Origin: a virus
IMG/VR virus record: IMGVR_UViG_3300050821_009085
Coordinates: 1-37,012 of that record
DNA: 37,012 nucleotides
Reading direction: 5' to 3' (one strand)
This document shows positions 1,848 to 36,701 of the stretch, in pieces (within the stretch, counting starts at the first letter, position 1; every line of letters starts with the position of its first letter). The translations under genes and the position numbers were made by a program. The notes beneath the pieces are model-generated. The model was given only the letters and a program-made list of their open reading frames with translations. It was not told the DNA's origin and searched no databases.

Positions 1848-1876
1848 ATTATGGCAGATTACTTGACAGGGTACAA
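1848..1876 (-). promoter_or_regulatory. Leftward early promoter
   Basis: On the minus strand TTGTAC (1876-1871) and CATAAT (1853-1848) are 17 bp apart, about 29 bp ahead of the Cro-like start. The -35 box is moderate and the -10 box is five of six. The -35 hexamer is the left half of the operator, so bound repressor would block this promoter. Confidence 0.55.
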
Positions 1877-1892
1877 GGACTTGTACTATACT
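1863..1892 (+). promoter_or_regulatory. Rightward early promoter
   Basis: TTGACA (1863-1868) and TATACT (1887-1892) are separated by 18 bp, an excellent sigma70-type promoter. It drives the operon from 1944 to the terminator at 7279-7300. It also shows that an in-frame ATG at 1851, upstream of the promoter, is not the start of the first gene. Confidence 0.85.
1871..1886. promoter_or_regulatory. Operator 1: perfect 16-bp palindrome
   Basis: GTACAAG-GA-CTTGTAC is a perfect 7-2-7 inverted repeat. It fills the spacer of the rightward promoter and contains the -35 box of the leftward one. A closely related site lies in the promoter at 35481-35509, and a looser one at 20254-20270. It is probably bound by a dimer of the adjacent Cro-like protein. 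Confidence 0.75.
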
Positions 1893-1943
1893 TCTTTTAC
1901 GTCACTACCGACGCAGACTAAAAAAAGTGAAGAGGTATATATC

Positions 1944-2366
1944 ATGCAAAATCAAAATTGTACATTAGAAAGGGAACATATTTTAGAAAAAAGTATTCAA
2001 GAGCTTGAACAGCTTAACAAAAAGCTTGCAAAGTTTATTGTACGCAAGGAAGAATTAACAAACGAAATCATAGGAGCTATTGGCCATGAACATGAAGGCC
2101 AGAAGTCTTATGAGTATAACGTTTGGAAAATTGAGGTGAAGACACCTTTTATTTACTCATTGAATAAAAGATGTTATGAATCACACGAATTTAATTTGCC
2201 GGAAAAGTTTAATCCGATAAAAGAGTCTGTATCTTATACTATCGATAAACGCTTATGTGATAAATATATTGCCGAAGCCCCGAAGGAAGTGAGAGATACT
2301 TTAGCACAATTGATTGATAAGAAGCCTGGGAAGGCAAGTATAGTTATCAAGGAGCGTACACAATGA
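1944..2366 (+). CDS. Recombination-operon accessory protein (140 aa)
   Basis: I start at the ATG at 1944, which follows AGAGG at good spacing and lies downstream of the promoter. The product has a helical coiled N-terminal part (residues 5-45, E/K/L-rich), then a beta-rich segment and a C-terminal segment ending in KPGKASIVIKE. This helix-then-strand layout recalls the small protein often found just upstream of Sak4-type ATPases in phages (DUF7173-like; recalled, not searched). The next gene overlaps its stop by four bases (ATGA). It may assist the recombinase; function is unknown. Confidence 0.65.
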   Translation: MQNQNCTLEREHILEKSIQELEQLNKKLAKFIVRKEELTNEIIGAIGHEHEGQKSYEYNVWKIEVKTPFIYSLNKRCYESHEFNLPEKFNPIKESVSYTIDKRLCDKYIAEAPKEVRDTLAQLIDKKPGKASIVIKERTQ

Positions 2367-3004
2367 GCAATACTGTCTTAGTCATAGGCGAATCAGGAAG
2401 TGGCAAGTCCACTTCCATTCGAAACCTTGATCCAAAATCCACGTTTATTATTTCTATTCTAGATAAACCGCTTCCTTTTAAAGGGTATAAAAAATCCTAT
2501 AACGAAGAAAATAAAAATTTTTATTGTTCGGATGACTACAATGCAATTATTGCATACATTCGTGCAATTAACGAAAGACGTCCTGATATCACCACTTTAA
2601 TAATAGATGATGCCCATTTTCTAATGGCAAATGAATTTATGAATAGAGCTTGTGAGAAAGGATTTGATCGTTTTAGTGAGATAGCTCAGCACATGTGGCA
2701 GGTTATGTGCGCCATAACTAGTAGTCGTGATGATTTAACCTGTTTTGTATTGTCTCACAGTGAAATTGATAACACGGGAATTTCAAAACCTAAAACTGTT
2801 GGGAAATTATTAGACGATAAAATTACCCTACAAGCGATGGTAACAGTTTGCTTGCATACCAAGGTCAGAGATGGTCAGTATCAATTTTTAACGCAAAATG
2901 ATGGCAGCCATGTTTGTAAGGCTCCTATGGATATGTTTGAGGGATTATTAATTCCCAACGATCTACTGTTAGTCAAAAATGCCGTAGAAAACTATTATAA
3001 CTAA
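2363..3004 (+). CDS. Sak4-like single-strand annealing ATPase (213 aa)
   Basis: The protein has a Walker A motif, GESGSGKST at residues 9-17, and a Walker B, TTLIIDDAHF with the DD pair at 82-83. This is the short RecA-like AAA fold (AAA_24) of phage Sak4 proteins, which anneal single strands and depend on a partner SSB. An SSB-like gene follows directly and a nuclease comes next, the usual recombination set. It begins in an ATGA overlap with the preceding gene. Sak4-like is inferred from size, motifs and neighbours. Confidence 0.75.
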   Translation: MSNTVLVIGESGSGKSTSIRNLDPKSTFIISILDKPLPFKGYKKSYNEENKNFYCSDDYNAIIAYIRAINERRPDITTLIIDDAHFLMANEFMNRACEKGFDRFSEIAQHMWQVMCAITSSRDDLTCFVLSHSEIDNTGISKPKTVGKLLDDKITLQAMVTVCLHTKVRDGQYQFLTQNDGSHVCKAPMDMFEGLLIPNDLLLVKNAVENYYN

Positions 3005-3014
3005 GGGGATAAAG

Positions 3015-3590
3015 ATGGCTGGATTTTGGGAGAGTGATTTGGGAGAGGTTACAGGAAGTAGTCAAGATGCTTTTGCGAAAAGCTTTGTCTTGGTGCCGGA
3101 TGGTACCATGGCATTAGCTAGAATTGACAAATTTATCAATGATGAATATAACGGAAATAAATTTTTGAAAATTGAATGGACACTAACTGATGGAGATTTC
3201 AGAGGCGCCAAAGTTGAGCAGAAAATTAAAGTATGGGGTGATAGTCGCGACAAAGACCCTGTAAAAACCCGTCATCGTGCTTTGAATATGCTCAAGCTCT
3301 TATTCAATCTTTATAATTTAAAACCGCGTCATTCTAACGATCCAACTGATCAAGATTTAGCACTATTCATAGACAAGGTTGCAGGCATTAAAATACGTGA
3401 AACTGAACCTAATGCCGATGGTAAACAATATAACTGGGTGGCCGAGGTTCATCCGCAAACAGGGTTTAAATGTGAGACAGGCATTAAGATCGTGGTTACC
3501 CATAACCATCTCAATGAGGCCAATGACTTGTTTGATTCGGCGTTTTCTAGAAATAAACACGTGAATAATGAAAGCGATATTCCGTTTTGA
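3015..3590 (+). CDS. ssb: Single-stranded DNA-binding protein (191 aa)
   Basis: The product is OB-fold sized, with a beta-rich core (FLKIEWTLTDGDFRGAKVEQ) and the acidic tail ESDIPF. A C-terminal D-I-P-F is the tip by which bacterial SSBs bind partner proteins. It lies between a Sak4-like ATPase and a nuclease. The core also resembles DUF669-type phage proteins, which sit in the same place and may be SSB relatives. AAGGGG lies upstream of the ATG. The tail and context make SSB likely, though the core is diverged. Confidence 0.75.
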   Translation: MAGFWESDLGEVTGSSQDAFAKSFVLVPDGTMALARIDKFINDEYNGNKFLKIEWTLTDGDFRGAKVEQKIKVWGDSRDKDPVKTRHRALNMLKLLFNLYNLKPRHSNDPTDQDLALFIDKVAGIKIRETEPNADGKQYNWVAEVHPQTGFKCETGIKIVVTHNHLNEANDLFDSAFSRNKHVNNESDIPF

Positions 3591-3601
3591 AGGAACTAAT
3601 A

Positions 3602-4243
3602 ATGACAATAGGAAGGCTTACTAAGTTAATAGAGTCCATAGATTATAGATCGGATGAAAAACGTAATTATATCGGAGCCTCAAGTATAGGCTCTGATTGT
3701 TTACGTCAGATTTGGTATGAGTTTAAAAATGCAGATGGGGAGATTGTAACTAATAAATTAAAAAGAACTTTTGATATTGGTAAGCAATTAGAACAATTAG
3801 TTTTTTCTTGGTTGACTCTCTCAAATGTTAAATTTGTAAGTCATCAATTACAGTATGAAGACGAAGAGCTTTTGTATTTCCAAGGTCATATTGATGGATT
3901 TCTGCCAGAACTAGAGGCAATACTAGAGATTAAAACCGCTAAAGATTCGAGCTTTAAGGGATTTGTCAAAGATGGTTTAAAAAAATGGAGTCTTAGGTAT
4001 TATGCACAATTACAATCTTATATGGGAATGTCTGGATTTCATAAAGCCTATATACTTGTATTAAATAAAGACAATAGTGATATTTGGGATGAAATGATAA
4101 CTTTTGATGAAACATTTTATTTGTCTTTACGTGAGAAAGCTAAAATGGTTTATGAAGCCGTTATTCCGCCACTACGGGTTAATAACTCACCTCTCTGGTA
4201 CCAATGTAAGATGTGCAAATTCAATAGGGTATGTCATGAATGA
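3602..4243 (+). CDS. Cas4/AddB-like iron-sulfur PD-(D/E)XK exonuclease (213 aa)
   Basis: I use the ATG at 3602, preceded by AAGGA, rather than a TTG at 3587. The nuclease core is IDG (D98), E109-I-K111 and a Q motif at YYAQLQSY (about 133-140). A Cys at 33 (SDCLRQ) and C202-x2-C205-x5-C211 at the C terminus are placed as the four ligands of a [4Fe-4S] cluster in Cas4 and AddB nucleases. It probably resects DNA ends to feed the annealing ATPase upstream. No cas1 or cas2 gene or CRISPR array is nearby, so a role in phage recombination is more likely than spacer acquisition. Confidence 0.8.
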   Translation: MTIGRLTKLIESIDYRSDEKRNYIGASSIGSDCLRQIWYEFKNADGEIVTNKLKRTFDIGKQLEQLVFSWLTLSNVKFVSHQLQYEDEELLYFQGHIDGFLPELEAILEIKTAKDSSFKGFVKDGLKKWSLRYYAQLQSYMGMSGFHKAYILVLNKDNSDIWDEMITFDETFYLSLREKAKMVYEAVIPPLRVNNSPLWYQCKMCKFNRVCHE

Positions 4244-4457
4244 TCTAAGAAATATTTGCGATGAGATGTTCAAAGTAACTTTTAAAGACATTTTGGAATG
4301 TATTTACTCAGAAATAGACTTTGCTATAGAAAGGACTTTAGAGTCTTTGGCGCATCTTAATATTCATGCCGATGAACATCTTATCAGAAAAGAGATTATT
4401 ACTTCTATTGTTAGGATTTTGTCTAGCGATTTGGAGAAATTTAAGGGTGTACAATGA
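4236..4457 (+). CDS. Small protein of unknown function (73 aa)
   Basis: The ATG at 4236 overlaps the end of the nuclease gene by eight bases and has GGG upstream. The product is largely helical (DEMFKVTFKDILECIYSEID), without membrane segments or a clear motif. Its stop overlaps the next ATG (ATGA). The tight coupling suggests co-expression with the recombination proteins. Confidence 0.7.
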   Translation: MNDLRNICDEMFKVTFKDILECIYSEIDFAIERTLESLAHLNIHADEHLIRKEIITSIVRILSSDLEKFKGVQ

Positions 4458-4660
4458 AATGGTATTCATCAAAAAGATTTAAACCTGGTCAAACAGGAGA
4501 TCAAATAATATTTAGGCTTCCCTCTGGATATATACATACGGGCGTGTGGGATCACTTAAAAGATCAAGGCTATCATTTTGAAACTCACAGTGGAGATAGA
4601 TATCCTTTGCATGAAACAACGCATTTCTGCATACCTGATCCAATTGAGATTGAAAAATGA
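4454..4660 (+). CDS. Small protein of unknown function (68 aa)
   Basis: It begins in an ATGA overlap and ends in another. The protein is rich in aromatic residues, His and Gly. Its end, THFCIPDPIEIEK, recalls the THW-x-P-x-P ending of short phage proteins of the DUF551 type. That resemblance is weak, and no function is implied. Confidence 0.65.
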   Translation: MKWYSSKRFKPGQTGDQIIFRLPSGYIHTGVWDHLKDQGYHFETHSGDRYPLHETTHFCIPDPIEIEK

Positions 4661-4932
4661 CTGAATTAGAAGATTTACTAAAAATATTGCCATCACAAAT
4701 ACATGTTCCAAGATTTAATTTTAATGGTAAAAAATTAAAACCGATTACATATGATTTAATAATTTTTAGATATAGAAACGATATTTCATATAGGAATTTA
4801 AAATGTACGTGCTCTGGAAATGTAATATTAAAAGATAAATTAATAGAATTTTATGATGGAGAATTAATTGAGAATGTAAAAAAAATGCTCGCTTGGGTTG
4901 TTGAATGGGGCGACGCAAATGACTCAAGATGA
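4657..4932 (+). CDS. Small protein of unknown function (91 aa)
   Basis: It starts in an ATGA overlap. It has one C-x-C pair (KCTCSG) and no other recognisable feature. Its codons are markedly richer in A and T than those of the upstream genes, like the HNH-AP2 gene that overlaps its end by 14 bases. The two may have arrived together. Function unknown. Confidence 0.65.
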   Translation: MTELEDLLKILPSQIHVPRFNFNGKKLKPITYDLIIFRYRNDISYRNLKCTCSGNVILKDKLIEFYDGELIENVKKMLAWVVEWGDANDSR

Positions 4933-5587
4933 AGTTGATTTGATTTATGAATATTTGCATGAGAATTATGAGTATCAAGATGGAGAATTATTTTCAAAAA
5001 GAAAAAACAGAGTTATAGGTCATATAAGTGAAGACGGGAGAATGTCTCTTACCCTAAACAAAAAAATCCTTGGTAGAATCATTTTAATATCAATAGCTAA
5101 ATGTGTTTTTATATACCATTTTAAAAAATGTCCCAAGTATATAAAGCATATAAACAACAATCCAATGGACAATAAAATAGAAAATTTGGCTGAGATAAAC
5201 AACCGAAATACAACACTTTACAATCCAAAAACAAGAGGTGTATCTAAAAGCAGAAATAAATACCGCGTTATATTATCTATTGGGAACGGAAAAGCAAAAC
5301 ATATTAGATCATGGGATTTAGAAAAAGATGCAGAATGTTTTTATCAAAACGTTACATCTCTGATTAATTCAGGAGAAGGTCTAGAATCAGCTATACAATC
5401 ATCTCTTTTAAAATTTCCAACAAATAATATTAAGAAAAGAAAATATCCTATTGGAGTACATCCAGTAAATAAAAGATTTGCTTGCGCTATGTATGCTAAT
5501 AGAAAAAAAATATATATTGGCACATATGATACCCCAGAAGAAGCTTATGAAGAATATCTAAAAGCAAAAAATGAAAATACTTCGTAA
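4919..5587 (+). CDS. HNH-AP2 homing-type endonuclease (222 aa)
   Basis: I use the ATG at 4919 (MTQDEV); a TTG at 4898 would extend it by seven residues. The middle holds the HNH_3 signature, IKHINNNPMDNKIENLAEIN, the usual H-I-x-N/G-x2-x2-N-x-I-x-N-L form. Two AP2-like DNA-binding segments follow: GVSKSRNKYRVILSIGNG with a W/E-A pattern, and IGVHPVNKRFACAMYANRKK then IYIGTYDTPEEAYEEY. Such proteins are free-standing homing endonucleases. It overlaps both neighbours (14 and 17 bases) and is AT-rich, consistent with invasion followed by adaptation to the operon. Confidence 0.85.
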   Translation: MTQDEVDLIYEYLHENYEYQDGELFSKRKNRVIGHISEDGRMSLTLNKKILGRIILISIAKCVFIYHFKKCPKYIKHINNNPMDNKIENLAEINNRNTTLYNPKTRGVSKSRNKYRVILSIGNGKAKHIRSWDLEKDAECFYQNVTSLINSGEGLESAIQSSLLKFPTNNIKKRKYPIGVHPVNKRFACAMYANRKKIYIGTYDTPEEAYEEYLKAKNENTS

Positions 5588-7277
5588 TTACCAACAACAA
5601 GCAGTTAATGAGTGCTGGAAATTCTTAAAAAAAGACAATGAGCCAGTCCTCCTCATGGCCTCTGTAGGGTCTGGAAAGAGCCTTATGATCGCATCAATAC
5701 TATTAGATATTCAACATGCGCATAAACGCGCTCTATGCCTTGTAAATAACTCTGAACTCGTACAAAATAATTGCGTTACATTTAATATACAAGGTGGAGA
5801 TTCCTCTATTTATTGTGCAGCGCTTGATTCTAAAGATACATCAGGCTCTGTTATATTCGGTACACCCCAATCAATATTAAATGGCATTAATAAAAATGAG
5901 ACAATATCCCAGATTAAATTTAATCTTATTGTAGTAGATGAAGCCCATGCTATTAATTTTAATAATATTAACTCTTGCTTTATGCGTATATTACGTCATT
6001 ACAAACAAGAATATAAAGACATGAGAATCTTAGGAGCCACGGGAACCAATTACAGATTTAAAGGAACGGCTATCGTAGGGAACGATTGTTTATTCCGAAC
6101 CCAAGTGGGAAATATTACAACCCTTGACTTAATCAAAAATAAATATCTCATAGCCCCTCATTTTTCTGTTGATGAAAAACTAATCATAGATTTTTCAAAA
6201 GTTAGAATTAAACAAAATGGTCTATTTGACCAAAAAGATTTAGCGTTCGTTATTAATAAAAGTACCCGTATTACAGAACTTATCTGTAAACAAATTGTCC
6301 ATATCATGGAATCTCAAAAAAAATTTGGTATCTTCATCTTTGCCACTACTAGGCGTCACGCTGAAGAGATTTTAAGTCACCTCCCTGAGACGCAAAGCGC
6401 TTTGATTCTTGGCGATACGCCTCAAGAGGAACGAACAAGGATTTTAGATGCAGCTCGTCAAGGTAAAATAAAGTATTTGGTTAATATCGCTATTATTAGC
6501 GTCGGGGTTGATATCCCTGCTTATGACACGCTTGCCTATTTAAGACCCACAGAAAGCCTTGTTTTGCTTGTTCAAACTATGGGGAGGGTCTTACGGCTTT
6601 CGCCAGATACCAATAAAACAGAAGCTCTTATCTTAGACTTTGCCGGCAATATAGAGCGTCATCGCGACTGGGACGACCCTATATTACAAGATGCAGTACA
6701 AAGCACTATTGATAAAGACAAGCCTTATGTAATCTTATGCCCTCAATGTAATGTAATGAATACAGAACATGCTAGGCGTTGCATAGGTAGTGTTAATGAC
6801 AAACGATGTGATTATTATTTTGAGTTTAAAGAGTGCCACAATCAAGACTGTAAAGTTAATAACGATATTACAGCGCGTCATTGTCGGGCTTGCGAAATAG
6901 AATTAATTGATCCTAATGCCAAACTAAATCTGGATACAGTTAAGAAATCTTACCATGAAGTTCGCGTATTAGGCGCCAAATATGCATTATCCGGAACTAA
7001 TAATAAATTTAGAGTAAGCTGTATATATTCTTGCATAGACAATAACGGAAGAAAACGGGATATCTTCGAGCATTATACGCCTTCTAGCGAAAAGGCTAAG
7101 AATGTATTCTACGGACAATTTGTAAGGCGTCATTGTAATAAATCATCTCAATGGTACCCGTACCTTATGAAACGACATAAGGTTGAAGAAATGCTACAGG
7201 AAATTAATACACCATCTAGATTATTAATAACACCAAATGAGAATGGCATTTTAATTAAGAAGAAATTTTTCGATTAA
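5571..7277 (+). CDS. SF2 DEAH-box helicase with C-terminal zinc ribbons (568 aa)
   Basis: Motifs in order: Walker A SVGSGKSL (31-38), DEAH in VVDEAHA (about 122-128), GATGT (motif III), SVGVDIPAYD (motif V, about 312) and QTMGRVLR (motif VI, about 335). After the helicase core come several cysteine pairs (CPQC, RCIG, CHNQDC, HCRAC; about 390-445) that look like two zinc ribbons, then a C-terminal domain. It may unwind or remodel forks or D-loops, like UvsW-type phage helicases. It is the last gene of the operon, overlaps the HNH-AP2 gene by 17 bases, and ends two bases before a strong terminator. Confidence 0.88.
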   Translation: MKILRNYQQQAVNECWKFLKKDNEPVLLMASVGSGKSLMIASILLDIQHAHKRALCLVNNSELVQNNCVTFNIQGGDSSIYCAALDSKDTSGSVIFGTPQSILNGINKNETISQIKFNLIVVDEAHAINFNNINSCFMRILRHYKQEYKDMRILGATGTNYRFKGTAIVGNDCLFRTQVGNITTLDLIKNKYLIAPHFSVDEKLIIDFSKVRIKQNGLFDQKDLAFVINKSTRITELICKQIVHIMESQKKFGIFIFATTRRHAEEILSHLPETQSALILGDTPQEERTRILDAARQGKIKYLVNIAIISVGVDIPAYDTLAYLRPTESLVLLVQTMGRVLRLSPDTNKTEALILDFAGNIERHRDWDDPILQDAVQSTIDKDKPYVILCPQCNVMNTEHARRCIGSVNDKRCDYYFEFKECHNQDCKVNNDITARHCRACEIELIDPNAKLNLDTVKKSYHEVRVLGAKYALSGTNNKFRVSCIYSCIDNNGRKRDIFEHYTPSSEKAKNVFYGQFVRRHCNKSSQWYPYLMKRHKVEEMLQEINTPSRLLITPNENGILIKKKFFD

Positions 7278-18953: not shown

Positions 18954-19457
18954 TTACTCACGAATTGCTAGACTAATAACCGATTTTTGTAATCCTTTCT
19001 TACAATTAAGACAAACTACTGCAATATTTGGTAATTCATTGTTCCAGGGGTCATTGTCGATATGATACAAAACTAAACAAAAGTCATGTTCTTTATAGCC
19101 ACAAAGCTGACAATGCTTTCCGTAATTTTGAAATACTAGTTTCTTTAAGCCTAATCGACATCCTGAGCCTTTTTTAAGGATTCTTTGGGATTTATTTAGA
19201 GCCAGTTTTTCTTTTATTTTAGCTTTGTAACAAATCTGACAATGTTTAGAGCAGAACTTTTTCTTTGATCGTTGAAAATATTTAGAACCGGTAACTTCCG
19301 TACTACAATTCATACAGTTAAATATAGGCGCCTCTACATTCCTATTAATATGACAATCATAACTGCAGTATTTTGCTGTATGTACTCGAAATAGAGGTAC
19401 ATAGAAAAAACGTGCACAGACTCTACACTTTATATTTTTGCCATTCCTTTGTCGCAT
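18954..19457 (-). CDS. HNH endonuclease with multiple zinc knuckles (167 aa)
   Basis: The C-terminal part has CQLCG, then LYHIDNDPWNNELPNIAVVC and CLNCKKG, an HNH fold with two C-x2-C zinc pairs. The N-terminal part has four more cysteine pairs (CRVC, CSYDC, CMNC, CSKHC), probably DNA-binding knuckles. The start ATG at 19457 lies within the end of the second initiator gene (28-base overlap). HNH proteins next to packaging or replication genes can be homing or accessory nucleases. Its location suggests it belongs to the cassette. Confidence 0.8.
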   Translation of the reverse strand: MRQRNGKNIKCRVCARFFYVPLFRVHTAKYCSYDCHINRNVEAPIFNCMNCSTEVTGSKYFQRSKKKFCSKHCQICYKAKIKEKLALNKSQRILKKGSGCRLGLKKLVFQNYGKHCQLCGYKEHDFCLVLYHIDNDPWNNELPNIAVVCLNCKKGLQKSVISLAIRE

Positions 19458-19978
19458 TTCATCATCTCATCTAATAGTGGCTGTAGGTGTTTAAAATCTG
19501 GCCCTAATTTGAAATTTCCTTTTTGACAGTATTCTAATTCTTTTCGTTCTTCATGGGTTAAAAAAGAAAAAGGGTTTTCGCTATTGTCTTTATTATTGTT
19601 TTTAATATTGTCTATAGGTATCCCAGCTAGTGGGGTCATTAAACACCCCAAAATGGGGTCATTAAACTCTGGAAATGGGGTGATTAAAGATTTATCACCC
19701 TCTTTAGTGGGGTGATTAAAACTTATACGATAAATAGGAATTCTGTTCCGATAACTAGTATTTTTTCCGGTATAAATTAAGATTTTTTTATCTCTAAATA
19801 TTTTTAATATGGATTCGACTTTATTTCTGCATCGACCGCTTTTTTCCATGATCTGATCAATAGTAAGAAATACTTCATTATCTTTATTAGCTGTGAAGCA
19901 AAGAATCGAAAGAATGTGTTTTTGTGTTGCAGTAAAACCAGTTTGTTCAAAACATAGTCTTGTTAGGTCTATACTCAT
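19430..19978 (-). CDS. Second replication-initiator-like protein, winged-helix (182 aa)
   Basis: I use the ATG at 19978 (MSIDLTRLCFEQ); an ATG at 20032 lies inside a strong hairpin and has no ribosome site. The N-terminal winged helix (TIDQIMEKSGRCRNKVESIL, then YTGKNTSYRNRIPIYRI) aligns in plan with that of the initiator at 252-1214. A linker follows, encoded by four 13-bp iterons (19631-19720), and then a short C-terminal domain. This is the gene plan of plasmid or phage initiators with an origin inside. It may be a second replication module or a relic. The similarity is by eye. Confidence 0.62.
   Translation of the reverse strand: MSIDLTRLCFEQTGFTATQKHILSILCFTANKDNEVFLTIDQIMEKSGRCRNKVESILKIFRDKKILIYTGKNTSYRNRIPIYRISFNHPTKEGDKSLITPFPEFNDPILGCLMTPLAGIPIDNIKNNNKDNSENPFSFLTHEERKELEYCQKGNFKLGPDFKHLQPLLDEMMKCDKGMAKI
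19631..19720. repeat. Iteron array 2 (four 13-bp repeats), possible second origin
   Basis: TGGGGTCATTAAA occurs at 19631-19643 and 19654-19666, and TGGGGTGATTAAA at 19676-19688 and 19708-19720. Starts are 23, 22 and 32 bp apart. Reversed partial copies lie at 19641-19650 (AAACACCCCA) and 19691-19700 (TTTATCACCC). The array sits inside the second initiator-like gene and differs completely in sequence from array 1. Confidence 0.7.
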
Positions 19979-20008
19979 TTGATATACTATTCCTGTTGTG
20001 TGTTGTTG

Positions 20009-20044
20009 AAAGCCGAACGGGTTAGCGCCCATATGTTCGGCTTT
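20009..20044. other. Strong hairpin ahead of the second initiator
   Basis: AAAGCCGAAC (20009-20018) and GTTCGGCTTT (20035-20044) form a perfect 10-bp stem, with GGG and CCC in the loop able to pair further. On the plus strand GTTTTTG follows, so it could stop leftover plus-strand transcription. On the minus strand it lies between the 49-aa gene and the initiator and could control its expression. Confidence 0.65.
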
Positions 20045-20253: not shown

Positions 20254-20270
20254 GTACAATGTACTTGTAA
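20254..20270. promoter_or_regulatory. Operator-like site in the cassette's divergent intergenic region
   Basis: GTACAA-TGTA-CTTGTA matches the halves of operator 1 (GTACAAG / CTTGTAC) with one extra central base. It lies between the divergent starts at 20209 (minus) and 20297 (plus). On the minus strand TTACAA and TATGAC, 17 bp apart, overlap it; on the plus strand AATACT preceded by TG is a possible -10. The extra base makes this the weakest of the three sites. Confidence 0.45.
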
Positions 20271-20437: not shown

Positions 20438-20662
20438 ATGAGTAAAGATACTGAGCAATATATTGAACATGAAGTAAGATTGAGATTAATAGAATCTCAA
20501 AATACAGATATCTATAGGAAGTTTGAAAAAATTGAGGAACGGATAGAAAGGATTTTCGATAAACTTGATTCAAAGATTCATTCTAATTTCTTATGGACTA
20601 TTGGGCTTATAGGTACATCTATTGTTCTCCCTGTGATTTTACATTTACTGAAACTTATTTGA
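20438..20662 (+). CDS. Small C-terminally membrane-anchored protein (74 aa), paralogue of the 61-aa protein
   Basis: The protein begins MSKDTEQYIEHEVRLRLI, has a charged coiled-coil-like middle (FEKIEERIERIFDKLDSKI), and ends in a membrane helix (LWTIGLIGTSIVLPVILHLL). EQYI-HEVRLR and the C-terminal anchor match the protein at 1440-1625. XhlA-type proteins have this plan. Each copy lies next to a winged-helix initiator gene, which suggests duplication of a module. Confidence 0.75.
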   Translation: MSKDTEQYIEHEVRLRLIESQNTDIYRKFEKIEERIERIFDKLDSKIHSNFLWTIGLIGTSIVLPVILHLLKLI

Positions 20663-33700: not shown

Positions 33701-34044
33701 TGTTTAACTTTTAGTTCACCTGTCATTATCTTTTCAAGCAGTGAGGCAGCATTCGTAGTATCATCATCTCTATCTTTTTCACGCCAGCGTGCACGTGTTT
33801 TGAGCCAAAATATTTGAGCTTTGATATCATCTCCATCGATTGCTTTACGAAAAAGTTTAGCTGCAACCTTAGCGTTTGCACGAACTATACTGTTGTCTAA
33901 TTCATCGCGATAATACTTAACTAATGTATTAATATGCACACCAATAAAGTTCGCAATTTCCTCCTGACTATTGCCAAAACTTACTAATGCTGCAACCTCA
34001 GCACGCGTCTTCTCTGTTGGTTCATGTGGAGTATTATCTGGCAT
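33697..34044 (-). CDS. terS: Terminase small subunit (115-116 aa)
   Basis: Two ATGs (34047 and 34044) overlap the methyltransferase stop; GGAGG is better placed for the second. A helix-turn-helix is visible at SFGNSQEEIANFIGVHINTL, followed by VKYYRDEL, and the rest is helical (KVAAKLFRKAIDGDDIKAQI). The small subunit recognises the pac site and loads the motor. The large-subunit gene follows with an ATGA overlap. Confidence 0.85.
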   Translation of the reverse strand: MPDNTPHEPTEKTRAEVAALVSFGNSQEEIANFIGVHINTLVKYYRDELDNSIVRANAKVAAKLFRKAIDGDDIKAQIFWLKTRARWREKDRDDDTTNAASLLEKIMTGELKVKQ

Positions 34045-35186
34045 CATTCCTCCAAGATAGCTTTATTACCGGTATAATTTTCATATCTTTGTATAATAAC
34101 ATCACAGTATTTTGGGTCAAGTTCCATCATAAAACATTTGCGTTTGGTTTTCTCACATGCGATTAAGGTGGATCCTGAGCCTCCGAATAAATCAATTATA
34201 TTGATAGCTTTTTTGTGATTTCCTAATGCTCTAATAGCAAGTTCCACAGGTTTTTGAGTAGGGTGAATATAATTTGTGTCTTTTGAAACAATCCACAAAT
34301 CAGACTCATTTTTAATCGATTCATCAATCTTTGCATTTGTTAAACAAAACTCATGTTGATGGCGATATCCAGAACCCATACCAAAGTTGTTTTTAGCCCA
34401 AACAATACATGCAGTAAACTCTAAAGTATTTTGTAAAAGAGCGTAAAACTTCCAGTTACACCATACATAATAAGGACATCTGAGTAAACAAATCATAGTA
34501 ACAATAGATGAGATAAAATGTTCAAATTCATCATCTTCTAAATCATCATTTTTGATTACATCAAATTTACCAGACCGACCCTTGAAGCCAACATTATAAG
34601 GGGGATCAGTAAATATTAAATCCATAGGTGTTTTACCAATTAATTTGTCAACGTCAAGAATATTAGTACTATCACCACACATCAAACGATGCTCACCCAA
34701 CATCCAAACATCCCCAAGCTTTGTGACCGGTTCCGCAGGCACATCAGGGCAATCATCCTCACCACAAAATACCTCAGGCGCGTCATCTGGAAAAATATCA
34801 ACCAACTCATCAAGGTCAAAACCTGTCAACGTCAGGTCATAATCAAATCCTTTCAAATACTCAAATTGGCTAACCAAAAGGTCATTATCCCAGCCTGCAT
34901 CTAGTGCAATCTTGTTATCAGCAATTACCAAAGCTGCTTTTTGTGCATCGGTTAAGCCTGACAACACAATACAAGGTAATTTCTCAATACCACACTGAAT
35001 CGCAGCCTCCAAGCGCCCATGCCCTGCAATAATAGTATTATGTTCATCAATTAAGAGTGGATTAGTAAAACCGAAGGCATTGATAGAGCGAATGATCTTG
35101 TTTATTTGTTGTTCAGAATGGGTACGGGAATTACCTTTAAATCTGTGTAAATCCCGTACAAAAATGTCTTTATAGTCTCTAAGCAT
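34044..35186 (-). CDS. ParB-domain / DNA methyltransferase fusion (380 aa)
   Basis: Residues 1-110 are a ParB-like nuclease domain (INAFGFTNPLLIDE, IIAGHGRLEAAIQCGI, ADNKIAL). Residues about 150-380 are an N4-cytosine/N6-adenine methyltransferase: DLIFTDPPYNV (catalytic DPPY at about 194) precedes the SAM-binding DLFGGSGST (about 331), the beta-class order. No restriction enzyme is nearby. It may protect phage DNA from host restriction or mark DNA for packaging, as it is directly upstream of terS. Target sequence cannot be read here. Confidence 0.9.
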   Translation of the reverse strand: MLRDYKDIFVRDLHRFKGNSRTHSEQQINKIIRSINAFGFTNPLLIDEHNTIIAGHGRLEAAIQCGIEKLPCIVLSGLTDAQKAALVIADNKIALDAGWDNDLLVSQFEYLKGFDYDLTLTGFDLDELVDIFPDDAPEVFCGEDDCPDVPAEPVTKLGDVWMLGEHRLMCGDSTNILDVDKLIGKTPMDLIFTDPPYNVGFKGRSGKFDVIKNDDLEDDEFEHFISSIVTMICLLRCPYYVWCNWKFYALLQNTLEFTACIVWAKNNFGMGSGYRHQHEFCLTNAKIDESIKNESDLWIVSKDTNYIHPTQKPVELAIRALGNHKKAINIIDLFGGSGSTLIACEKTKRKCFMMELDPKYCDVIIQRYENYTGNKAILEE

Positions 35187-35192
35187 CAGTGT

Positions 35193-35378
35193 TTAAGGGC
35201 CTGCTTGCACATTTCTATGCTCGCCAACTAAGGCACCATCGTTCTCACCAGCTTCCCCTGGCCAACAGTATTTTGGCTGTTCACGGCATTGTTCATCTAC
35301 AATCTTCCCATACATAGACTTGACACCATTGTAATGATTGTATTCTTCTTCCTCTGTGTAATCTTTGACTTCCATCAT
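35193..35378 (-). CDS. Small protein at the head of the late strand (61 aa)
   Basis: I use the ATG at 35378, with GGAG eight bases upstream. The protein is acidic at the N terminus (MMEVKDYTEEEEYNHYNGV) and has two cysteines (EQCREQPKYCWPGEAGENDG). It is the first minus-strand gene before the methyltransferase. A 16-bp palindrome lies 16 bases upstream of its start. Function unknown. Confidence 0.65.
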   Translation of the reverse strand: MMEVKDYTEEEEYNHYNGVKSMYGKIVDEQCREQPKYCWPGEAGENDGALVGEHRNVQAGP

Positions 35379-35393
35379 GATAGTAGCTCCATC

Positions 35394-35409
35394 TATTAAT
35401 CGATTAATA
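35394..35409. promoter_or_regulatory. 16-bp AT-rich palindrome near the late-strand start
   Basis: TATTAATC-GATTAATA is a perfect palindrome 16 bp upstream of the first late gene and 85 bp from operator 2. It could bind a late regulator or be a transcript feature. No recognised consensus matches. Confidence 0.4.
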
Positions 35410-35480
35410 ATGTACCACACGGTAACGATAGCACAATTTAATTACACAATAAAATATTTTAAATATTTAGTTCAAATTAC

Positions 35481-35509
35481 TTGACATATAGTTCAAGTAC
35501 TTGTACCAT
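35481..35509 (+). promoter_or_regulatory. Promoter of the small-gene operon
   Basis: TTGACA (35481-35486) and TACCAT (35504-35509) are 17 bp apart, 33 bp ahead of the first ATG at 35542. The -35 box is perfect and the -10 box is four of six. The spacer contains operator 2. Confidence 0.75.
35491..35506. promoter_or_regulatory. Operator 2
   Basis: GTTCAAG-TA-CTTGTAC differs from operator 1 by one base in the left half and in the two-base centre. It occupies the same place in a TTGACA promoter, between the -35 and -10 boxes. A partial third copy, GTTCAA-ATTA-CTTGAC, lies just upstream at 35470-35485 and overlaps the -35 box. Confidence 0.7.
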
Positions 35510-35541
35510 CTCCTTTGTTAACTAGCCAAGTGAATATAAAA

Positions 35542-35739
35542 ATGAATATTAATTTTGAATTTGAGGAAACCGATCATGGATTGGAATTTATGCAATACCA
35601 AACAAAGATTTTTTATTGTAATGGCATCTGCACCTTTAGAAATTCAGATTGTGGAACTTTAGAAAATCTCAAAAAGTTACTTGGGGACTTAAAAATATCC
35701 ATAGAAAAATTAGAAACGTTCATAAATAGCAAAGGATAA
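35542..35739 (+). CDS. Small protein 1 of the operator-controlled operon (65 aa)
   Basis: I use the ATG at 35542; a TTG at 35515 would start close to the promoter. The ribosome site is weak (AAGTGA). The product starts MNINFEFEETDHGLEF, has YCNGICTF and SDCGTL cysteines, and a helical end. It is the first gene after the promoter. Function unknown; a host-takeover or anti-defence role is possible. Confidence 0.6.
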   Translation: MNINFEFEETDHGLEFMQYQTKIFYCNGICTFRNSDCGTLENLKKLLGDLKISIEKLETFINSKG

Positions 35740-35742
35740 AAA

Positions 35743-35952
35743 ATGAAAGATTTTGTAGATTGCGTAATGAAGTTCTACGGTAAAGATGAAATATACGATA
35801 TCGGAGCGACTCGTGAAGAAGTATGGCACGCCACATGTATTCGATTAAAAAGAACCCTAGGTCAGCCATTGAATGGTGTATCTTTTGAGGCTGATGACCT
35901 TGACCGGGAAGCAGTTAGGGATATTATTTTAGAAATTAGGGAGAAATCATGA
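35743..35952 (+). CDS. Small protein 2 of the operator-controlled operon (69 aa)
   Basis: AAAGGA precedes the ATG at 35743. The product is acidic and helical (VCMKFYGKDEIYD-type start, ending EADDLDREAVRDIILEIREK), without membrane helices. It overlaps the next gene by four bases (ATGA). Unrecognised. Confidence 0.65.
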   Translation: MKDFVDCVMKFYGKDEIYDIGATREEVWHATCIRLKRTLGQPLNGVSFEADDLDREAVRDIILEIREKS

Positions 35953-36152
35953 AACAAGATACCGACAGTTATCTGGGAACAAAATATACGGTTTGGAATG
36001 ACCAAGATTATCCTAACGATTGGTATTTTACAATTCATACAAATTCTGGTGATATAGATAGCGATGATTCATTTAACACAATGCAGGATGCAAAAGACTA
36101 TGCTGAAGGCTATATAGAAATTCAGCTAGACAGAGCTATAGGGAGATACTAA
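35949..36152 (+). CDS. Small acidic protein 3 (67 aa)
   Basis: GGGAG precedes the ATG. The product is rich in Asp and Tyr (DSYLGTKYTVWNDQDYPNDW, SGDIDSDDSF) and ends in a helix (AKDYAEGYIEIQLDRA). Such acidity is seen in DNA-mimic inhibitors, but that reading is speculative. It overlaps the next gene by one base. Confidence 0.65.
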   Translation: MKQDTDSYLGTKYTVWNDQDYPNDWYFTIHTNSGDIDSDDSFNTMQDAKDYAEGYIEIQLDRAIGRY

Positions 36153-36385
36153 TGAAAACCTTAAGCGATATAACGCTTTACGATCTAATGGCTGAAGATA
36201 TGGATGTTTGGGTCAGAAAGCGCACCTCAAACACCTTTGAAATACAAATTGATGACGAAAATGGCGAAACCCTCCTAGAAGATGACTCAATACATGAGTT
36301 TGCCGTAGATAGCTTTGCTAGATTCTGCAAGTACTTTCTATTTTCATACAACAACGCTAACAAAAAGGAGTTAGAATTATGCTAA
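36152..36385 (+). CDS. Small acidic protein 4 (77 aa)
   Basis: GGGAG precedes the ATG. Acidic patches are DLMAEDMDVW and QIDDENGETLLEDDSIHEF. The C-terminal part is aromatic (FARFCKYFLFSYNNANKKE). Its last codons contain the ATG of the next gene. Unrecognised. Confidence 0.65.
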   Translation: MKTLSDITLYDLMAEDMDVWVRKRTSNTFEIQIDDENGETLLEDDSIHEFAVDSFARFCKYFLFSYNNANKKELELC

Positions 36386-36507
36386 GGAAGCTCAAATGCG
36401 CCTTGAGAGGTCATAAGTATCATCTGCACTATGACCGGGTAACCAGGGTTTATGGTCCGGCGAGCGAAGATGTTTGCTGTTGCTGCAGTCGAACTCGACG
36501 AACTTAG
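36379..36507 (+). CDS. Small Cys-cluster protein 5 (42 aa)
   Basis: The ATG at 36379 overlaps the previous gene by seven bases, with AAGGAG upstream. [20 protein letters not shown] followed by [10 protein letters not shown] suggests a small zinc-binding protein like the DUF1660-type phage proteins (C...GH...C-x2-C). It ends four bases into the convergent cspA-like gene. Confidence 0.65.
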
Positions 36508-36701
36508 GTGCGCTGAACGTTCTTGGCAATTGCACCCTTTGGGGAGTTTGCAGGCTCAAAGCTTACAGGCTCTCCTGGTTCTAGTGTTTTAAACCCGTCC
36601 GAGTTAATTTCTTTATAATGCACAAAATATTCTTTGTTGTTACTCGTGATAAATCCAAACCCTTTGCTCTCCGAAAACCACTTCACAGTCCCTTGTAGCA
36701 T
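36504..36701 (-). CDS. Cold-shock domain protein (65 aa)
   Basis: A complete CspA-type domain: [15 protein letters not shown] with RNP1 KGFGFI (13-18), then YFVHYKEI in place of RNP2 (25-32), ending [20 protein letters not shown]. It would bind single-stranded RNA or DNA and melt structure. AAGGGA precedes the ATG. It is the last gene of the leftward early strand, after the initiator, so it may assist phage mRNA translation or replication. Its end overlaps the plus-strand gene by four bases. Confidence 0.92.

Follow-up and report, generated by a model that had tools for sequence, protein, structure and literature searches.

The window, the whole stretch of DNA analysed here, is a 37,012-base virus contig whose ends share a 98-bp direct repeat. 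Because of this repeat at both ends, we treat the record as a complete phage assembly that closes into a circle of 36,914 bp. It carries packaging and tail genes, a recombination operon (1944-7277) and a small-gene operon (35515-36507). Two replication-initiator/helicase-loader-like genes lie at 252-1214 and 19430-20032 (HTH_36, PHROG 186/270), and a gene at 34044-35186, found only in some relatives, encodes a ParB-like domain fused to a DNA methyltransferase. The minus-strand gene at 1640-1819, called cro below, encodes a Cro-like predicted repressor of 59 aa. Searches with this protein as query returned 8 and then 44 viral loci together with one contig from a bacterial assembly. About 20 complete or nearly complete related genomes were read, each rotated so that cro starts at position 5000, and the control region of each relative was compared with the remainder of its own genome. 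Judged by terminase, the nearest isolate is Pseudoalteromonas phage H6/1; among isolated phages we found no homologue of the Cro-like protein or of the first recombination-operon gene.

The recombination operon, on the plus strand, begins with a gene for a 140-aa protein (1944-2366, PHROG 2480), which has a confident predicted fold and for which no solved relative was found. It is followed by genes for a Sak4-like recombinase (2363-3004; PHROG 2872, E 1.6e-74), a single-strand DNA binding protein (SSB; 3015-3590; PHROG 9002, E 2.8e-12) and a Cas4-type exonuclease (3587-4243; PHROG 1990, E 1.2e-51), and the operon also encodes a helicase. Ahead of it on the plus strand lies an early promoter, TTGACA-18-TATACT (1863-1892), with 11 of 12 consensus matches and boxes at 1863-1868 and 1887-1892. 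Its 18-nt spacer is occupied by the perfect palindrome GTACAAGGACTTGTAC (1871-1886), a predicted operator at a conserved locus which we call O1. The left half of O1 serves as a weak -35 box (TTGTAC, minus strand) of a putative divergent cro promoter, TTGTAC-17-CATAAT (1848-1876), whose geometry is alike in relatives. The preliminary description had placed exactly this palindrome in the early-promoter spacer and on the -35 of a divergent promoter, and we find it so. It had overlooked a weaker second operator at this site and another at the site described below. Here this predicted operator, O2 (1853-1867), is degenerate, with one half reading CAG; it is separated from O1 by 8 bp, a distance shared with relatives, overlaps the early -35 box and falls within the spacer of the cro promoter. 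Half-site spacing thus differs within this one genome, being N4 at O1 and N5 at O2.

A second control region precedes the small-gene operon, about 3.3 kb from the first on the circle. The plus-strand promoter TTGACA-17-TACCAT (35481-35509) contains GTTCAAGTACTTGTAC at 35491-35506, with exactly the letters given in the preliminary description. The element lies downstream of TTGACA (35481-35486), and its end overlaps the first 3 bases of TACCAT (35504-35509). This predicted operator, O1', is accompanied by O2' (GTTCAAATTACTTGACA, 35470-35486), the previously overlooked weaker one, which covers the -35 box and is separated from O1' by 10 bp, as in relatives. The operon downstream comprises five plus-strand ORFs without a match to any family of known function, and the action on the host that the preliminary description ascribes to them is conjectural; the gene at 36152-36385 has related genes in 13 of 20 genomes searched. 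The interval from one operator locus to the other includes a cold-shock protein gene (36504-36701), which has related genes in each of these 20 genomes. The same neighbourhood holds another perfect 16-bp palindrome, TATTAATCGATTAATA (35394-35409), which lies upstream of both the packaging genes and a conserved gene, 35193-35420. Related records that carry this palindrome have a single copy each, and it is a second, different operator candidate. In several relatives (e.g., G004, G009, G012, and G016) the homologue of 35193-35420 is preceded by a TTTTGTGGATAA stretch with a DnaA-box-like TGTGGATAA, a stretch that is degraded in the window.

Single-genome counts gave the recurrence of the palindrome only moderate significance: allowing up to 3 mismatches, there are 3 matches vs. 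1.1 expected, and another 14/16 match arises in 2 of 40 random genomes. Such statistics are too weak to decide, and sites 1 and 2 are convincing because they are conserved in relatives. Several relatives showed a clear remote match to the control region 3.2-5.5 kb downstream of cro, situated between the cold-shock gene and the homologue of 35193-35420, ahead of the small-gene operon. Inspection of the same interval revealed the site in most other relatives, despite diverged sequence. Both loci carry operators of the form CAA-N3-5-TTG, often as tandem pairs. Measured between the TTG of one site and the CAA of the next, the N3, N4, and N5 variants all keep a gap of 8 bp at promoter 1 and of 10 bp at promoter 2. 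Exact 8-bp-gap pairs were present at 11 of 20 first promoters, compared with 2 in the other 705 kb, and exact 10-bp-gap pairs at 13 of 19 second promoters, compared with 1. A looser pair search returned 28 matches within the two loci; outside them it returned 11, with about 16 expected in random sequence. Four relatives (G010, G015, G018, and G021) have diverged or single sites.

The two promoters also resemble each other within a genome. Half-sites of promoters 1 and 2 agreed at 2.55 positions within genomes vs. 2.26 between genomes (p = 0.0012), in a permutation test on 8 genomes in which shared base composition was not otherwise controlled. In four genomes (G007, G008, G014, and G015) the same cro gene adjoins another set of recombination genes. 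In three of them (G007, G008, and G014) the swapped set consists of different exonuclease and annealing-protein-like genes, and the tandem operators are kept at site 1. Such persistence would be expected of control that resides in the promoter. Sites 1 and 2 are real and conserved, and they are very probably Cro operators.

The Cro-like protein belongs to a family in which 40 of 40 relatives match PHROG 409 and 37 of 40 members match Pfam P22_Cro (PF14549) at E<=0.1; the 59-aa protein of the window, searched alone, gave no PF14549 match at that cut-off. Compared with solved structures, the family profile matched P22 Cro (1rzs, E 5e-6) and N15 Cro (2hin, E 8e-4). The AlphaFold2 model (pLDDT 94) shows an all-helical Cro fold with a helix-turn-helix and superimposes on N15 Cro with a TM score of 0.86-0.87 and an rmsd of 1.0 (operator complex 6on0, TM 0.86), and on P22 Cro with a TM score of 0.76. 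In relatives, cro directly adjoins site 1 and is divergent from it, an arrangement of palindromic operators in the control region beside cro that characterizes Cro of the P22/N15 type. Neighbourhood and fold point to this protein as the binder; recognition-helix residue 29 showed no significant association with the presence of the CAA core (p = 1.0), and we therefore only infer its identity. Next to cro, at 1440-1643, lies a gene for a small membrane protein with a paralogue at 20438-20662; the two are 37% identical, one is XhlA-like, and similar genes occur in relatives.

Immediately downstream of the early promoter lies a structured 5' leader RNA (1899-1946, plus strand) that covaries in 43 sequences. 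It consists of a hairpin, CGUC (1900-1903) with GACG (1910-1913), a small helix, ACU (1917-1919) with AGU (1926-1928), and a hairpin loop, UACC (1906-1909), that is complementary to the Shine-Dalgarno (SD) region GGUA (1934-1937). Across these three helices in the 43 aligned leaders, 95.1% of cells pair vs. 89.9% in shuffled alignments, doubly changed cells number 18 vs. 2.7, and the covariation score is 0.156 vs. 0.073; for each measure none of 500 shuffles reached as high a value, in controls that leave relatedness in. Registers slid along the alignment paired in 23-41% of cells. Changes in the loop go with changes in the SD region (UACC/GGUA, AUCC/GGAU, AACC/GGUU, and UAAC/GUUA), and on the tree of the first gene the variant groups need at least three changes. 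These data support the leader as a covarying structure in the aligned sequences. Because the loop changes with the SD region, we set aside a reading of the inverted repeat as a DNA operator. In 46 of 47 leaders, that of the window included, 7 nt separate the end of the -10 box from the hairpin, and from this fixed distance the early mRNA should begin with the hairpin; the conserved element thus probably forms the very start of the transcript.

Each genome has a single copy of the leader, together with the first gene and the SSB gene, and it is missing where those genes are missing. No further copy was found, whether at promoter 2 or in other parts of the genomes, and a search of 1700-2100 against Rfam returned no match up to E 5. 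Folding without pseudoknots favours the loop-SD pairing over the hairpin, so that the two could be alternatives, forming a switch, and not a pseudoknot. By its fold, the leader would hide the SD region of the recombination operon and add a second regulatory layer. As a tentative proposal, less likely than not to hold in full, these lysogeny-free-looking phages may gate their recombination operon twice: on DNA by a stand-alone Cro that works at two separate promoters, and on RNA by a 5'-terminal, SD-hiding pseudoknot read by a product of the operon itself (SSB or the first protein), convergent with the operator of T4 gene 32. The leader is the more novel part of the system compared with the Cro operators: a covarying RNA element that lacks an Rfam match and stands at the beginning of phage recombination mRNAs.

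For the DNA level, we consider it likely that Cro from 1640-1819 binds the tandem operators at two promoters and represses early genes. A Cro dimer would bind the tandem operators at promoters 1 and 2, and at promoter 1 a dimer on either O1 or O2 would block polymerase in both directions. The targets of repression would be the recombination operon, cro itself and the small-gene operon. Because binding would block polymerase at all three, early expression would be on at infection and would then be lowered as Cro accumulates. No tyrosine integrase was found in 21 genomes, and no CI-type HTH_3 repressor matched over the cut-off in the same set. Given these two absences, a stand-alone Cro exerting delayed negative feedback on early genes, rather than a lysis-lysogeny switch, is the simplest reading. 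Some observations count against the Cro model: recognition-helix residue 29 showed no significant association with the CAA core, the coexistence of N4 and N5 half-site spacing is unusual for one dimer, and the relatives G010, G015, G018, and G021 have diverged or single sites.

A temperate lifestyle, with sites common to Cro and an unrecognised CI-like repressor, appears unlikely. It would agree with N15, PY54, and phiKO2, in which Cro acts alongside a prophage repressor (PMC4488713, PMC4997575), but neither a tyrosine integrase nor a CI-type HTH_3 repressor over the cut-off was detected in the 21 genomes, and the divergent position is taken by the recombination operon instead of a repressor gene. 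The lack of a CI-type match weakens the case for a lysis-lysogeny switch and has no such bearing on the identity of Cro.

The preliminary description had gone further and suggested that a single regulator, in the simplest case the Cro-like protein, could control three operons, the third being the second-initiator cassette. Our data support one regulator for the recombination operon, cro itself and the small-gene operon, since the same two loci recur in diverged relatives and half-sites are similar within genomes; for the cassette they do not, and a single Cro regulon of three operons is improbable. The letters GTACAATGTACTTGTAA are indeed present at 20254-20270, in an intergenic position, with 5 of 6 arm bases pairing and a spacer of 5 nt, the N5 spacing also seen in O2-type sites here. 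However, the window holds 17 other imperfect CAA/TTG palindromes as good as this one, which puts the site at chance level; it has no tandem partner, and no sigma-70-like promoter matched over 20254-20270. Upstream of the homologous gene, 9 of 10 relatives have no CAA/TTG site, and the remaining one has an unrelated lone site. We therefore rejected site 3 as a member of the regulon, and control of the cassette through it is not supported. An artefact of chance or composition is the best reading of this site. The two membrane-protein paralogues described above lie near site 1 and near site 3.

That another phage or host repressor reads the operators seems quite improbable. The assignment to Cro draws on neighbourhood and fold, with recognition-helix covariation not significant, and in principle the operators could also serve a host factor. 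Yet cro is adjacent in every genome with sites, even where the neighbouring genes differ, none of the 21 genomes yielded an HTH_3 match over the cut-off that would supply another phage repressor, and PY54 Cro, a protein of similar general kind, binds a 16-bp palindrome (PMC4488713). It is hardly credible that the palindromes at sites 1 and 2 are themselves artefacts of chance or promoter composition, because relatives have fixed-gap tandem pairs at these two loci as well, even though within one genome a second match is only moderately rare.

With repression by Cro at promoters 1 and 2, this widespread group of uncultured phages would offer a two-promoter regulon that can be tested, along with rules of operator sequence and spacing for a Cro that seemingly works without a CI partner. 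Operators paired at a fixed gap, with half-site spacing that varies, form a natural data set on the co-change of repressor and site.

The system shares with P22 and N15 a small, all-helical Cro, palindromic operators in a divergent promoter region and, presumably, autorepression. Unlike in those phages, no CI/c2 partner was found, the operators are tandem pairs with a CAA-N3-5-TTG core, a second operator locus lies at the small-gene operon, and the recombination operon is in the divergent position. In PY54, Cro is a lytic repressor that acts at a single site upstream of the prophage repressor gene (PMC4488713). The small Cro and the 16-bp palindrome at a promoter are common to both (PMC4488713), with binding predicted in our case; the phage studied here differs in having two operator loci and no prophage repressor gene over the cut-off. 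For the leader, the closest parallel is the operator of T4 gene 32, a pseudoknot 5' of the SD region that is bound by gp32 (PMC535899). By analogy, the leader resembles this operator, as a predicted 5'-terminal pseudoknot on an mRNA encoding an SSB for recombination; it differs from the T4 element in that the hairpin loop pairs with the SD region itself and the SSB is encoded by the third gene.
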